From Alphaproteobacteria bacterium (GTDB lineage: Bacteria > Pseudomonadota > Alphaproteobacteria > M2410): a DNA stretch of 45,535 bases. The stretch is taken from positions 1 to 45,535 of the forward strand of contig JAUWTJ010000029.1 of assembly GCA_030614785.1 (NCBI GenBank). The letters run 5' to 3'. Positions 36,323-43,960 of this stretch are shown piece after piece; position 1 is the stretch's first letter, and the number at the start of each line of letters is the position of its first letter. The position numbers and the translations under genes were made by a program. Under the pieces are notes generated by a model. It did no database searches. It was not told the origin of the DNA and saw nothing but the letters and a program-made list of their open reading frames with translations.

Positions 36323-37213
36323 ATGACATCCGACACCTTCAAGACGCTCACCTATGAAACCGATGGCCGCATCGCCACCATCACCCTGAACCGGCCCGAA
36401 CGCATGAACGCCATTTGCGCCGGCATGCCCAGGGAAATTGCCGCTGCGGTGGAGCGTGCCAATGACGATGACGCCGTCCATGTCATCGTCCTCGCAGGTG
36501 CCGGCAAGGGCTTTTGCGCCGGTTATGATCTGAAAGACTTTGCCGAGGTAAAATCAAAGGGGCGAAGCCGGGGTGCCGCCTCCAGCACGGAAGACATGCC
36601 GTGGGACCCGATGGTTGATTTCAACATGATGTTCCGCAACACCGAGGATTTCATGAGCCTGTGGCGCTCGTACAAGCCGACCATCGCCCGTGTCCATGGC
36701 CCCGCCGTTGCCGGTGGCAGCGACATCGCGCTGTGCTGCGATATGGTGGTCATGGCCGAGGAGGCCAGCATCGGTTATCCACCGGCGCGCGTCTGGGGCT
36801 GTCCGACCACGGGCATGTGGGTCTATCGTCTGGGTGCGGAGAAAGCCAAGCGCATGCTGCTGACCGGCGATCTCGTCTCGGGCCGCGAGGCCGCCGACAT
36901 GGGCCTCGTCTATGAAGCGGTGCCACTGGCCGAGCTCGACGCCCGCATTGATCATTGGGTCGGCCGCATGCAGGGCGTACCGCGCAACCAGCTGATGATG
37001 CAAAAGATGATGGTCAATCAGGCCATCGAGAACATGGGCATGCTCAACACCCAAAGGTTCGCCACCCTCTTCGACGGTATAACCCGCCACTCACCCGAAG
37101 GCATGTGGTTCAAGCAACGCGCCGAGGAGGCTGGGTTCAAACAGGCAGTCAAGGAGCGGGACGGGGGCGATCCGATTGCCGAAGGGGTGTCGAAACGGAC
37201 GTATCGATTTTGA
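36323..37213 (+). CDS. Enoyl-CoA hydratase/isomerase (crotonase) family protein with a replaced 3' end
   Basis: A 296-residue crotonase-fold enzyme. The CoA/oxyanion segments are GAGKGFCAGYDL near residues 58-69 and HGPAVAGGSDIALCCDM near 128-144; GYPPARVWGCPTTGMW near 150-165 forms the active-site rim, and a Glu/Asp pair in that region would be expected to act on the enoyl-CoA. Members hydrate or isomerise enoyl-CoA in beta-oxidation or act on aryl-CoA; the substrate is unknown. The last 37 codons plus stop (37100-37213) recur at 37882-37995 with silent differences only. The attached copy uses more A/T-ending codons than the body, suggesting that it is the incoming one. The start follows AAGGGAACC. 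Confidence 0.9.
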   Translation: MTSDTFKTLTYETDGRIATITLNRPERMNAICAGMPREIAAAVERANDDDAVHVIVLAGAGKGFCAGYDLKDFAEVKSKGRSRGAASSTEDMPWDPMVDFNMMFRNTEDFMSLWRSYKPTIARVHGPAVAGGSDIALCCDMVVMAEEASIGYPPARVWGCPTTGMWVYRLGAEKAKRMLLTGDLVSGREAADMGLVYEAVPLAELDARIDHWVGRMQGVPRNQLMMQKMMVNQAIENMGMLNTQRFATLFDGITRHSPEGMWFKQRAEEAGFKQAVKERDGGDPIAEGVSKRTYRF

Positions 37214-37311
37214 AGAAAGATGGAGACAGATTGGGAGATTGGAATCCATTCGTATTTTTGCATGGAATGTGATAAGTAGTAAATCTTGATTGCATTGCAA
37301 CTGGAAATTTG

Positions 37312-37881
37312 ATGCGGCAGGCATTTAGACTGACATTTGCCAGCGTTTGGTCCTGGGCTGGCATTTTGGCCGGGTCAATTGCTCTTGCAAATCTCATGTC
37401 GATGTACATCGATGTAGGGATGGGGCCGGTTTTCGAGCGGGTACTGAGCACTTATCGGTCAATTGTGTATCCGGTCTACGCTTCAATATTTTCGGTATAT
37501 AATTGGTCTCCGCCCGACTGGACCAAGGACCTGGTTACAATGCATTTGGTAGGCGCTGCATCCTACTATCGATTCACAACTCAATTTATCGTCACTGATT
37601 TTGATCGGTTCTTTGCGCGTCTGATCGATGGGTTGGTCAGGGTCACAGTCAGTTTCTATTGGGAAGCTATGCTGGTAAACAGCCTGATAGGATTGAGGAA
37701 ATCTGATGACACACGACGCAGACAGATCAAGCGGTTCTTCAAAGACCTCGATGAAGACACGCTGGATGTGGAAGTGGATAATAGCCGGGCGTTGGAGAAA
37801 GACCTCTTGTTTGGCCTTGCACGGCATCTTATTGCCGTCCCTTCAGCAGCCTTCTTATTCATACTTGTGTCAGCCGGTTAA
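37312..37881 (+). CDS. Orphan membrane-associated protein inside the duplicated-tail insertion
   Basis: A 189-residue protein with a hydrophobic N-terminal segment (about residues 10-30), aromatic-rich middle parts (PVYASIFSVYNWSPPDW and TVSFYWEAMLVNSL), a basic/acidic stretch DDTRRRQIKRFFKDLDEDTLDVE and a hydrophobic C-terminus (LIAVPSAAFLFILVSAG). No family is recognised. GGAAA precedes the ATG. The stop codon TAA is formed at the junction with the second copy of the hydratase tail, since its last two bases belong to the repeat. Base composition is visibly more A/T-rich than the hydratase gene upstream, consistent with acquisition. Confidence 0.7.
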   Translation: MRQAFRLTFASVWSWAGILAGSIALANLMSMYIDVGMGPVFERVLSTYRSIVYPVYASIFSVYNWSPPDWTKDLVTMHLVGAASYYRFTTQFIVTDFDRFFARLIDGLVRVTVSFYWEAMLVNSLIGLRKSDDTRRRQIKRFFKDLDEDTLDVEVDNSRALEKDLLFGLARHLIAVPSAAFLFILVSAG

Positions 37882-37995
37882 GGCATGTGGTTCAAACAGC
37901 GCGCCGAGGAAGCCGGGTTCAAACAGGCGGTGAAGGAGCGGGACGGGGGCGATCCGATTGCCGAAGGGGTTTCGAAGCGGACGTATCGGTTTTAG
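37882..37995 (+). pseudogene. Displaced 3' end of the enoyl-CoA hydratase gene
   Basis: These 114 bases encode, in frame, the same 37 residues and stop as the end of the hydratase gene (GMWFKQRAEEAG to SKRTYRF), with no start of their own in context. Against the attached copy at 37100-37213 I count nine differences in codons, all silent, and a different stop (TAG for TGA). The displaced copy has more G/C-ending codons and so resembles the hydratase body better. It is most simply the original end of the gene, pushed 782 bases downstream. Confidence 0.88.
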
Positions 37996-38019
37996 GGGCA
38001 ACAATCCAAAATATATTAT

Positions 38020-38107
38020 TGTCATACCCGGGCTCGACCCGGGTATCCAGAAGCGGAACATGCGGTGTTTGCCTCACCGGATTGCCGGATCAAGTCCGGC
38101 AATGACA
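38020..38107. repeat. Intergenic repeat with two perfect hairpins (GTCAT...ATGAC ends)
   Basis: ATACCCGGG-CTCGA-CCCGGGTAT (38024-38046) and ATTGCCGGA-TCAAG-TCCGGCAAT (38081-38103) are perfect nine-base stems with five-base loops, in an element bounded by GTCAT and ATGAC. It lies 25 bases after the displaced hydratase tail. Nothing else was recognised between here and the gene ending at 38264, other than a short hairpin ACTCC-TTGA-GGAGT near 38250. Confidence 0.75.
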
Positions 38108-38263
38108 GGGTGCCATGGACCAAGTTCCTAGACCGTCAGGAGCGAGTATCGAAAAGGGGGATGGGGGCGATGGTCGCGACAAACTACAGGCACTGAAGCG
38201 GTGTCCGTCATTATCTGTTTGGCCCTCCGAATATGGCGAAGGCCCTTCTGACTCCTTGAGGAG

Positions 38264-39046
38264 TTACTTGATATACTGAGTGACGAAATACTCAAATGAG
38301 TCGAGTGTTTGTTCCACTACTTCCGACATGTGTTGCAGCGTCGAGACGACAGGTTCGCTCTCAAAAATTGCTCCTTGTGGGAATGTAATTTCAACCGATG
38401 TGCTGAAGTTACCGTCCATAATGATTGGCTGATCGGATCGAATTATCTTCATGTATCCATCGGCGTTGCCGCCGATACTACTGTTTTGCATGACAGTGGT
38501 GCCAATTCGGGCATTGATGTTTTCGACAGTCACAACTGAAACCGTCGGAATGAAGTCATTGTGTTTGTTTTGATTGCAAAGGCTGGCTGCGGCCCATAGA
38601 GGGAGGTTCGTGTCTCTGCAAGGTTTAATCTCCTCGAGAATGAAATTGGCGGCTTCAGGGAAGGCCCTTTCGATAGGCGCGTAATAGTGAGAGCTTTTAA
38701 GGTCTTGCCATCTTTCCGAAAATGGGAAATGGACCCGTTTGGGCTGTCCGATAGCTTCGAGAGCCGTGTTGATCGAATAGTCGAGCGCCTCTCTGAGATT
38801 ATTGACCGCGTCTCCAATGACAACGCCAAAGTGATCTGCAATCGGTTCTTTAGATCTGTAGGATAAGCCGTAGCCATCTGGTCGTGCTAGCAGCGCGATA
38901 GAACGTGTGGGTCCATTGGTGATTTCGTACAGACTCTTTGACAAGGGCGAAGAGTCGCGAATGAGTGTGCTGATATGGCTGTTGGCCCTTTTGACTTTCA
39001 ATTTCGCTCGGCGGAATCTATTGCTTGCGGTCATAGCTTGGGCCAT
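38264..39046 (-). CDS. Unrecognised soluble protein of about 260 residues
   Basis: A 260-residue protein with a basic start (RFRRAKLKVKRANSH), then FGVVIGDAVNNLREALDYSINTALEAIGQPKRVHFPF near residues 75-110, LWAAASLCNQNKHNDFIP near 150-167, and a C-terminal beta-rich then helical part. The R-x-x-L-D-Y and N-K-H-x-D elements recall the AbiV/HEPN-like or 'NLR-D' helical proteins common in accessory regions, but I cannot name a family with confidence. No membrane segment. The ATG at 39046 has no clear ribosome-binding site, and an ATG four codons later is possible. A/T content is higher than in the recA-icd block. Confidence 0.7.
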   Translation of the reverse strand: MAQAMTASNRFRRAKLKVKRANSHISTLIRDSSPLSKSLYEITNGPTRSIALLARPDGYGLSYRSKEPIADHFGVVIGDAVNNLREALDYSINTALEAIGQPKRVHFPFSERWQDLKSSHYYAPIERAFPEAANFILEEIKPCRDTNLPLWAAASLCNQNKHNDFIPTVSVVTVENINARIGTTVMQNSSIGGNADGYMKIIRSDQPIIMDGNFSTSVEITFPQGAIFESEPVVSTLQHMSEVVEQTLDSFEYFVTQYIK

Positions 39047-39147
39047 ATCTGGAATTCAAATGTTGGTGAGCAAGACTTTTACTCCAACACCGCCTCGGGG
39101 GCTGAAGGGCAGAGGGAAGGAAAAGGCACGTGGTCAGCTGCGCTTCA

Positions 39148-39378
39148 TTATTTGAATCTGGTTCGGATCACTCTTGGGGTTGATGCATTCGAATTGGCCG
39201 CTTTCAAAACGATTGGAGAAAAGGTGTCGCGCTGTACGACTCGCTTGTTTCCAACCTTTTCGAAACAAACACACCAGACGGCATCTTCTTTCGTCATCGA
39301 CGTTTTCCCGACCTGTTCGATAGTCATTGTCGGGCCGCCCGATTTCAGTTTGACCAAGTCGCCGTCTGCAAAGTCCAT
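39148..39378 (-). CDS. DUF2158 (YodC-like) small protein
   Basis: A 76-residue protein of the DUF2158 pattern: DFADGDLVKLKSGGPTMTIEQVG at the start and WCVCFEKVGNKRVVQRDTFSP after it, a small beta-barrel of unknown function with two Cys. The start is taken at the ATG at 39378, preceded by GGAGAAGGA; an upstream TTG is open too. It lies in the A/T-richer block between the hydratase and recA, next to the 260-residue unknown protein on the same strand, with 101 bases between them. Such genes are often found in accessory DNA. Confidence 0.82.
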   Translation of the reverse strand: MDFADGDLVKLKSGGPTMTIEQVGKTSMTKEDAVWCVCFEKVGNKRVVQRDTFSPIVLKAANSNASTPRVIRTRFK

Positions 39379-39560
39379 TTCCTTCTCCAAGATTTAGATG
39401 TTCATGTTTTGTTGCTGTATATCAAAGGTGGTTGCAGTTTGCCAGTACTCTTTATGTCGATTTTGCAAGCTCAGACAACAAGGATTGGTCTGATCTCCAA
39501 TTTTGACATCGTAATCCTGATTCTCTCGGACCTCAACCTTATCTCGCTCCAATTATATGA

Positions 39561-39575
39561 GAACAAAATCGGAAT
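39561..39575. promoter_or_regulatory. Candidate LexA (SOS) box, distal to recA
   Basis: GAACAAAATCGGAAT differs at one base from the alphaproteobacterial LexA consensus GAAC-N7-GAAC. It lies 121 bases before the recA start and 68 bases before a second such site. The whole 39379-39695 gap is A/T-rich; one open frame in it does not look like protein. Confidence 0.45.
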
Positions 39576-39628
39576 TCACATCTATTTACCTTTCAAAATC
39601 AAACACTTAAAAAAACTCTTGCCAATGA

Positions 39629-39643
39629 GAACAAAGTGGGTAC
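39629..39643. promoter_or_regulatory. Candidate LexA (SOS) box, proximal to recA
   Basis: GAACAAAGTGGGTAC has one mismatch to GAAC-N7-GAAC, and its reverse strand ends in TTTGTTC as known SOS boxes of this class do. It lies 53 bases upstream of recA, the expected place for repression by LexA. Confidence 0.55.
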
Positions 39644-39695
39644 ATTCACATCAATTGCATGATAAACACCCCTGTGAAATAAGGAGACGGGCGAT

Positions 39696-40861: not shown

Positions 40862-40896
40862 AAAGCGGCACCTTTTGGAAGGGGGTGCCGCTTTTC
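40862..40896 (+). terminator. Rho-independent terminator after recA
   Basis: AAAGCGGCACC (40862-40872) and GGTGCCGCTTT (40884-40894) form a perfect 11-base stem around an 11-base loop, followed by TTCC. It lies 57 bases after the recA stop. Confidence 0.88.
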
Positions 40897-40904
40897 CTGT
40901 TTCT

Positions 40905-41034
40905 CAGTCCCTCTCCCTCCGGGAGAGGGTGCCCGGAGGGCGGGTGAGGGGCGATGTTGCACCGCTCCGAGAGCCTTGCAGACGCTGTCCCTCATCCGGC
41001 GCTGCGCGCCACCTTCTCCCGGAGGGAGAAGGAC
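40905..41034. repeat. Intergenic REP-pair element, copy A (before alaS)
   Basis: The element opens with a hairpin CCCTCTCCCTCCGGGAGAGGG and closes with CTTCTCCCGGAGGGAGAAGG; inside it are GGGTGAGGGG and CCCTCATCCGGCGC. The copy at 43788-43920 is the same element in reverse orientation, with well-kept ends and a diverged middle. It fills most of the 327-base gap between recA and alaS, which otherwise holds only the recA terminator and the alaS leader. Confidence 0.88.
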
Positions 41035-41132: not shown

Positions 41133-43778
41133 ATGACCTCTCTGAAAGACATTCGCGCCGAGTTCCTCGGCTATTTTGAATCTAACGACCACACCGTTGT
41201 GTCCTCGGGCTCGCTGGTGCCGCACAATGATCCGACGCTGATGTTCGCCAATGCCGGCATGAACCAGTTCAAGAATGTCTTCACCGGCAACGAGACCCGC
41301 GACTATGTCCGAGCGGCGAGCTCCCAGAAATGCGTTCGCGCCGGGGGCAAGCACAATGACCTCGACAATGTCGGCTACACCGCCCGCCATCACACCTTCT
41401 TTGAAATGCTCGGCAACTTTTCCTTCGGCGACTATTTCAAGGAAGAGGCGATCTATTACGCATGGCAGCTCCTGACCAAAGAGTTCGGCCTGCCAAAGGA
41501 CAAATTGCTGGCAACGGTCTATGCCGAAGACGATGCGGCCTTTGACCTGTGGAAAAAGATCGCCGGTTTTTCCGATGACAAGATCATCCGCATTCCGACC
41601 TCGGATAATTTCTGGTCCATGGGCGATGTCGGCCCGTGCGGGCCGTGCTCCGAAATTTTCTACGATCACGGCGAACACATCAATGGCGGCCCGCCTGGAA
41701 CCCCCGAGGAGGATGGCGACAGGTTTGTCGAAATCTGGAACCTCGTCTTCATGCAATATGAACAGATCTCGGCTGACGAGCGTCTCGATCTGCCCAGACC
41801 CTCGATTGACACGGGCATGGGGCTCGAGCGCCTCGCCGCCGTGCTGCAGGGCGTCCACAATAACTACGATATCGATCTCTTCGCCAATATCATTGATGTC
41901 TCCAAACATCTGACCGAAAGCGGTGATGCCAACGACATCACAAGCCACCGCGTCATCGCCGATCACCTGCGCTCCGCCTGTTTCCTCATCGCCGACGGCG
42001 TGTTGCCATCGAACGAGGGGCGCGGCTATGTGCTGCGCCGGATCATGCGTCGCGGCATGCGCCACGCCCAGATTCTGGGGGCAAAGGATCCGCTGATGCA
42101 CCGTCTCGTGCCAACGCTGATGGGAGAGATGAGCACAGCTTTTCCGGAACTCACCCGGGCCGAAGCGCTCATCACCGACACGTTGAAGCTGGAAGAGGAA
42201 CGCTTCCGCGAGACCCTCGCACGCGGTCTCAAGCTGCTCGGCGACGAGGTCAAAAATCTGGGCGGTGAAAAGTCGCTACCCGGCGCCGTCGCGTTCAAGC
42301 TCTATGACACCTACGGTTTCCCGCTCGACCTGACAGAAGACGCGCTGCGCACTCAGGGCCTCACCGTCGAGATCGCAGGTTTCGACGCCGCCATGGCGAC
42401 ACAAAAGGCCGCCGCGCGCGCCGCATGGAAAGGCTCCGGGGAGACCGCCACAGAAGAATTCTGGTTCGACCTGCGCGACCGTCTCGGCGCCACCGATTTC
42501 CTTGGCTATAGCAGTGAGCTGGCCGAAGGCGTCGTCACCGCGATCATTGTCGATGGCCAGGAGGTTGGCACCGCAGGCGAGGGCACCCAGATCCGCTTTA
42601 CCACAAACCAGACCCCGTTTTACGGCGAATCAGGGGGGCAGGCCGGAGATCGCGGCTACGGCCTCATCGGATCCTCGCGGATAGAGATCACCGACACGCA
42701 AAAGAAGCTCGGCGTTCTGCACGTCCATCATGGCGTTGTGACCAGCGGTCAGATCAAGGTCGGTGACGCCATCGAGCTGCACGTCGATCACGATAAACGC
42801 GCCGCCACCCGCGCCAACCACTCGGCAACCCATCTGCTGCACGCGGCGCTGCGCCTTACTCTCGGCGATCATGTGACGCAAAAAGGCAGCCAGGTTGATG
42901 ATGAGAAACTGCGCTTTGACTTTTCCCATCAAAAGGCCGTCACATCTGAGGAGCTCGCGCAGATCGAAGCCGAGGTCAATGCCATGGTGCTTCGCAACGA
43001 GGCGGTGACGACCCATCTGATGACGCCGGAAGCCGCCGTCGCTGAGGGCGCAATGGCACTCTTCGGTGAGAAATACGGCGATGAAGTCCGTGTCCTGACG
43101 ATGGGCACCGTCGAGACAGGCGATAACTATTCCGTCGAGCTGTGCGGCGGCACCCATGTTGGCCGCCTCGGCGATATCGGCCTGATAAGTATCGTTGCCG
43201 AAAGCGCTGTTGCCTCAGGTGTGCGGCGTATCGAAGGACTGACGGGCAAGGGCGCCAAGGCGCACCTCGATGCCGAGGCCGCGTTGCTGCATGAGGCCGC
43301 TGCCGTTCTCAAAACTCCGCCGCGCGATCTGCCAACCCGCATTGCCGCGCTCGTGGATGAGCGCAAGAAACTTGACCGTGAACTCACCGAAGCCAAAAAG
43401 GCGCTGGCGCTGTCCGGTGGCTCGGGTGCCTCCGAAGGCCCGAAGGTCGAGGAGATTGGCGGTGTGAAGTTTCTCGGCCAGGCCCTCGACGGCGTCTCCG
43501 GTAAGGACTTGCCAGGGCTTCTGGATGATGCCAAAGCGAAAATCGGCTCCGGCGTCGTCGCCTTCGCTTGTAACTCCGATGGCAAGGCCGCCGTCGCCAT
43601 CGGCGTCACCGACGATGTCAAAGACAAGATCAGCGCTGCGGACCTTATCAAGGTCGCCGTCGAAGCTGTCGGCGGCAAGGGCGGCGGCGGGCGCCCCGAC
43701 ATGGCCCGCGGCGGTGGCCCCAATGGCGGCGATATCGCCCAGGCGATCGAGGCTGTGAAGGCTGCGATGGCGGGGTAG
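41133..43778 (+). CDS. alaS: Alanyl-tRNA synthetase
   Basis: A complete 881-residue class II synthetase. The aminoacylation core begins at residue 1 ([37 protein letters not shown]); editing-domain zinc residues are in NHSATHLLH near 564-572 and CGGTH near 671; a C-terminal oligomerisation/C-Ala domain ends in a Gly-rich [16 protein letters not shown] segment, which is typical. It charges tRNA-Ala and edits Ser and Gly. The ribosome-binding site is weak. It follows recA as in related genomes and is flanked by inverted copies of one repeat. Confidence 0.98.
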
Positions 43779-43787
43779 GAAACAGGA

Positions 43788-43920
43788 GTCCTTCTCCCTC
43801 CGGGAGAAGGTGGCGCAAAGCGCCGGATGAGGGGCGGTGTTGCTCCACTCAGTGTACGTCGAGATATCGTCCCTCACCCGTCAGGCTTCGCCTGCCACCC
43901 TCTCCCGGAGGGAGAGGGAC
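43788..43920. repeat. Intergenic REP-pair element, copy B (after alaS)
   Basis: Reverse-oriented copy of the element at 40905-41034. It begins GTCCTTCTCCCTCCGGGAG and ends CCCTCTCCCGGAGGGAGAGGGAC. The outer hairpins and the GCGCCGGATGAGGG and CCCTCACCCG blocks match, while about 30 central bases differ. It starts ten bases after the alaS stop and may also act on the 3' end of that transcript. Confidence 0.88.
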
Positions 43921-43932
43921 TCTCGAACGGAA

Positions 43933-43960
43933 AAAGGCCGCACTCGAGAGTACGGCCTTT
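43933..43960 (-). terminator. Rho-independent terminator of icd
   Basis: AAAGGCCG (43933-43940) and CGGCCTTT (43953-43960) form an eight-base stem, extended inward by ACT/AGT pairing. Read on the minus strand it is followed by TTTTTCC, so it ends the icd transcript, about 24 bases after the icd stop. It may also act on alaS. Confidence 0.82.

Follow-up and report, generated by a model that had tools for sequence, protein, structure and literature searches.

Within the 45,535-nucleotide stretch of DNA analysed here (the window), a complete rightwards-transcribed gene at 36323–37213 (+ strand) encodes a 296-residue member of the crotonase/enoyl-CoA hydratase family, with a match to Pfam ECH_1 (E=1e-42) and a score of 437 bits, above the cut-off, to the PRK08272 subfamily (NCBIfam NF006128). 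The 3' end of this gene is present twice on the same strand. The copy attached to the gene (37100–37213) consists of 37 codons and a TGA stop, and the distal copy (37882–37995) consists of 37 codons and a TAG stop and lacks any upstream coding part. The two copies align without gaps 782 bases apart and are 92% identical, and two further shared bases (AA) at the left edge (37098–37099, with their counterpart at 37880–37881) bring the direct repeat from 114 to 116 bases. The longest identical run, 38 bases at 37151–37188, would be the easiest place for homologous exchange between the copies. The sequences 3' of the two stop codons have no similarity to each other. An earlier note, made from the letters alone, spoke of a 782-base insertion; this figure stands as the period of the repeat, and the DNA between the tails is 668 bases long.

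Comparison of the two tails codon by codon reveals nine differences, all at third positions and all synonymous, with no amino acid changes, so the equal length, the silent-only divergence and the TGA and TAG stops reported previously are all confirmed. The probability that nine random single-base changes would all be silent is 3.5e-6, or 7.7e-6 with a transition bias of 4, and the NG86 method (S=25, N=86) gives a dS of 0.49 and a dN of 0. Because the distal copy is not translated as part of a gene it should drift freely, and the lack of changes over 86 nonsynonymous sites limits its drift since displacement to no more than about 3.5% (95%), well under the divergence between the copies. Taken together, the sequences indicate that each tail was the end of a working gene while the two diverged, in separate lineages, and that they met recently, the displacement being a recent one. 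Divergence in different lineages before the tails came together is what the earlier note had proposed, and the silent-only pattern is repeated in the two additional genomes described below.

The 668 bases between the tails hold a single gene. It lies behind a putatively imported spacer (37214–37311) that follows the new stop codon and is unlike the sequence after the distal stop, and it encodes a 189-aa orphan protein (37312–37881, + strand) that is hydrophobic and mostly helical by prediction. Its TAA stop codon (37879–37881) lies across the junction with the displaced 3' end and uses the shared AA, and the insertion is, as was claimed, one orphan hydrophobic protein without an integrase. The GC3 of this passenger gene is 0.54 (GC 0.47), as compared to a GC3 of 0.78 for the hydratase. 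Searches of the orphan against protein families, PADLOC, PHROG and PDB gave no match, including none to restriction-modification (RM) proteins, it was not found in viral contigs, plasmids or phages, and a structure predicted from the single sequence (mean pLDDT 45) is too low in confidence for use. Across the 385 genomes searched for this class, a protein of genome G228 (27–30% identity), encoded next to a transposase-like gene, is the one relative that convinces. An adjacent hydratase and orphan, which could represent a potential donor, was not found in the genomes searched.

Several other features are present to the right of the hydratase. Immediately behind the displaced tail is a palindromic, dispersed-repeat-like sequence (38021–38106), for which the Rfam search returned a sub-threshold match only and nothing above threshold. 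Two leftwards-transcribed orphan ORFs, one of 260 aa without a family (38264–39046, – strand) and one of 80 aa that matches phrog_3261 (39148–39390, – strand), lie within the same stretch of lower GC content that extends from the hydratase to recA, and the whole interval 37214–39695 has the appearance of accessory DNA. Farther to the right, related inverted and direct repeats of 29–53 bases with CTCTCCCGGAGGGAGA cores (40891–41034 and 43786–43936) flank a large gene (41133–43778) that by eye encodes an alanyl-tRNA synthetase.

Recurrence at the hydratase gene

A tail-profile search of 385 genomes of the class identified two further genomes with two tails, and a 398-genome sample of the phylum yielded no further case. 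In the first of these (G357), a member of another alphaproteobacterial family, the same architecture lies inside a 245-kb contig with an insert of 3.6 kb: one gene only, for an 1150-aa Type IIG RM protein and on the opposite strand, lies between the complete hydratase and a second tail of about 32 codons, which shows two differences, both silent. Five congeners with 93–96% protein identity have one tail each, and in the closest of these (G385) sequence matching the 3' flank of the G357 distal tail begins 36 bases after the end of the single gene. Because the flank of the distal tail is co-linear with the DNA behind the single tail of G385, the site is an empty one in G385. In G357 it is accordingly the distal tail that adjoins the ancestral flanking DNA, and the attached tail and the RM gene are the incoming parts. 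The earlier proposal that the attached copy is incoming and the distal copy original therefore holds for G357, and by analogy the same direction of import, into a formerly empty site, may be inferred for the window. The codon-usage argument offered for it does not stand: segments of equal length from the gene body vary enough in their A/T-ending codons to encompass the attached copy, and its excess is not significant.

In a mosaic test of the G357 gene against its congeners the private sites show a slight concentration towards the 3' end, but two of them occur in both tails, so a clear donor tract did not emerge. Four of the five close congeners carry about 1.3 kb of extra DNA between the hydratase and a MarR-type gene, and this is absent from G385 and from G357 itself, so the site downstream of the hydratase is variable in this genus too. 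Where it was read, just downstream of the hydratase in G280 and G187 (L119 / L113), the extra DNA is an ATPase-like ORF.

The second additional genome (G082) belongs to a third family, and here the structure is split between contigs. The hydratase is at the end of contig C56, and the start of contig C82 contains genes for an MT-A70/Type II methyltransferase, a protein of unknown function and a DndB-like protein, followed by the second tail. This tail has 43 codons, and all 14 of its differences are silent (dS 0.67). Contig C56 terminates (L092 2425–2661) within an apparent transposase C-terminus that is IS630-like by eye, and this would account for the break in the assembly of this insert. In total the three cases comprise 25 codon differences, none of which changes an amino acid. 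It is the passengers at the same site in these other genomes that suggest, by analogy, a possible defence role for the orphan in the window.

The same self-comparison of about 1,040 other ORFs of these genomes revealed no lone 3'-end duplication, and the 3'-end matches that these controls do have are to full-length or broad paralogs, or are non-terminal repeats; in the window genome the scan for similar events covered about 310 kb. With the window excluded, one event in about 38 homologues compares with none in 1,037 controls (p = 0.035). When G082 is counted as well, a case that spans two contigs and came to light by another route, p falls to 0.001. As the search was prompted by the same gene, this enrichment does no more than suggest that the hydratase is a special target. 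A lone tail match in genome G703 was rejected as a chance match in another frame, six tail matches on plasmids are all to whole crotonase genes, and neither the tail pattern nor the tail profile has any match in viral contigs.

Junctions, recombinases and mechanism

The structure is a real and recent xenologous replacement of a gene 3' end together with the gain of a passenger gene, and the same gene is affected in three families. As to mechanism, we favor for the window, with a probability of about 0.5, one-sided homologous recombination with the DNA of a relative, whose other end was joined illegitimately within the gene. The donor would be DNA of a related lineage in which the 3' part of the crotonase gene is followed by a different downstream neighbour, the gene for the putative 189-aa membrane protein. 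The gene part of the donor would pair with the resident gene and recombine at or upstream of codon 260, and at codon 260 itself the resident gene would receive the non-homologous donor end by illegitimate joining. The outcome would be gain of the passenger and movement of the resident tail 668 bases downstream, where it is now non-coding, with the protein sequence kept because the imported tail is synonymous. What we infer in this scheme is the donor's identity, a role for RecA and the precise position of the crossover.

Homology on one side of the imported DNA is apparent in the attached tail, which is homologous to the resident tail and has diverged from it silently, and the one-sided reading is supported by the silent-only xenologous copies, the recent displacement, the occurrence of different passengers at the same gene, the variable junctions, the lack of an integrase in the two complete inserts, the lack of lone 3'-end duplications among the control ORFs and the empty site for G357. 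At the right junction a different codon is involved in each of the three cases, with unrelated sequence on its left. In the window the microhomology at the junction, as read on the recipient side, is two shared bases only (AA), which if anything counts against the one-sided model. One-sided recombination events are reported to be rare, and three of them at one gene among about 40 homologues would, against that rarity, fit a targeted process.

An alternative that we regard as possible though unlikely is an in-place insertion with a long target duplication, followed by homologous recombination with the empty allele of a relative that overwrote one tail with a silently different functional one. 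Insertion of RM genes with target duplications that are long and of variable length has been reported, as far as the work of Nobusato et al. (2000) on such insertions in Helicobacter pylori is represented in the papers that cite it (PMC1643837, PMC3031569), and two of the three cases here have RM-type passengers. The G357 tails, which differ at two codons only, both silently, are close to what a duplication in place would give. Two events are required by this scheme in the window (dS 0.49) and in G082 (dS 0.67), however, and the passenger in the window is not an RM gene.

It is quite unlikely that the structure is the scar of a site-specific integrative element of the prophage, satellite or ICE type, as with e14 in the icd gene of Escherichia coli, that restored the 3' end of the gene and later lost its integrase and most of its genes. 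The anatomy matches that of icd/e14 and the same gene has been struck repeatedly, and the earlier note had likened the arrangement to elements of this kind, but the data argue otherwise. Neither of the fully sequenced inserts encodes an integrase, the one in the window holding only the 189-aa orphan and the one in G357 only the RM gene; an integrase could lie in the missing part of the contig-split G082 insert. The whole window genome has just two PF00589 tyrosine recombinases, in frames of 332 and 355 aa that are both on other contigs and are presumably XerC and XerD. Among the matches listed there is no PF00589 protein on the hydratase contig of G357 and no tyrosine recombinase near the hydratase in 20 genomes, and a tyrosine-recombinase motif, searched as a regular expression without a positive control, had no match downstream of about 38 homologues. 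The left boundaries of the repeats are about 37 (window), 32 (G357) and 43 (G082) codons before the stop, with runs of identity at the left edge of 16, 3 and 6 bases across the three cases, and no common attachment core was seen at them; different boundary codons with 3–16 bases of identity are unlike a single attachment core. Nor does any viral contig carry the tail or the orphan, and the plasmid matches to the tail are, as noted, whole crotonase genes.

A more speculative reading, which we consider very unlikely, is that cargo cassettes without an integrase dock preferentially at the crotonase 3' end. Circles composed of a gene tail and a passenger, often of defence type, would come and go here through the homologous recombination of the host, acting within the tail. 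If this were true the tail would be both homology arm and repair patch, and the three cases would represent a mode of mobility and not a set of accidents. It is likewise very unlikely that an orthologous hydratase and the orphan were inserted in tandem and that the 5' part of the second gene was later deleted; this too would yield silent-only tails and variable left boundaries with no integrase, but it needs two events each time, and no tandem full pair of the subfamily is present among the homologues searched. That the window is an assembly chimera of two strains is scarcely credible, since its genome, while a draft of 148 contigs, has a completeness of 99.1% and a contamination of 0.13%, there is no shared sequence of k-mer length at the junction to explain a misjoin, and the same architecture occurs in three independent assemblies, in one of them within a 245-kb contig and with an empty site in a congener.

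Comparison with known systems and implications

Homology-facilitated illegitimate recombination has been inferred for the effector–immunity arrays of the Vibrio cholerae T6SS (PMC5361080) and reported in E. coli conjugation (PMC3240628). One-sided recombination as we propose it for the hydratase resembles this process in that one end is anchored by homology and the other is illegitimate, and in that the displaced resident 3' part lies downstream of the imported module. The imported 3' part in the T6SS arrays encodes a different toxin, whereas here it is synonymous, so that the enzyme stays as it was and the passenger is the sole novelty. Rhs/CDI loci, whose orphan 3' regions are mentioned in PMC5361080, are similar in that displaced gene ends pile up behind a gene whose 5' part is conserved, but those ends are variable toxin tips and the displaced end here is that of a conserved enzyme.

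One-sided recombination would produce the arrangement that is known, for RM genes, as insertion with long target duplication. The H. pylori RM insertions, as the citing papers present them, share with our three cases the long and variable direct repeats, which enclose a single gene or a small number of genes and no transposase, and the RM-type passengers of two of the three. They differ as duplications in place: the repeats here are silently diverged xenologues with the second copy imported, and the window passenger has no RM match. The dS of 0.49 against a dN of 0 points to separate lineages, so the repeats would not both derive from the resident target. In icd the e14 element leaves a duplicated 3' end of 165 bp in which 12 nucleotides are changed, with an effect on the amino acid in only two instances (PMC11148124). 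There, as here, a metabolic gene has its 3' end restored by the insert and the copies differ almost only silently, but the hydratase insert is 668 bases long, it lacks an integrase and phage genes, and its site within the gene is not a fixed one.

The structure is of a known kind, and what is new is the silent-only signature that marks import and the recurrence with passengers of restriction-modification type. Silent-only divergence of flanking repeats offers a simple test, requiring sequence only, for distinguishing imported homologous DNA from duplication of a target in place, and drift of the displaced copy offers a handle for dating; the signature can be scanned for across all genomes. At least some RM insertions with long target duplications may, we suggest, be one-sided recombination events with the DNA of a relative, and this would explain how single defence-type genes spread beside conserved genes without an integrase or a transposase.
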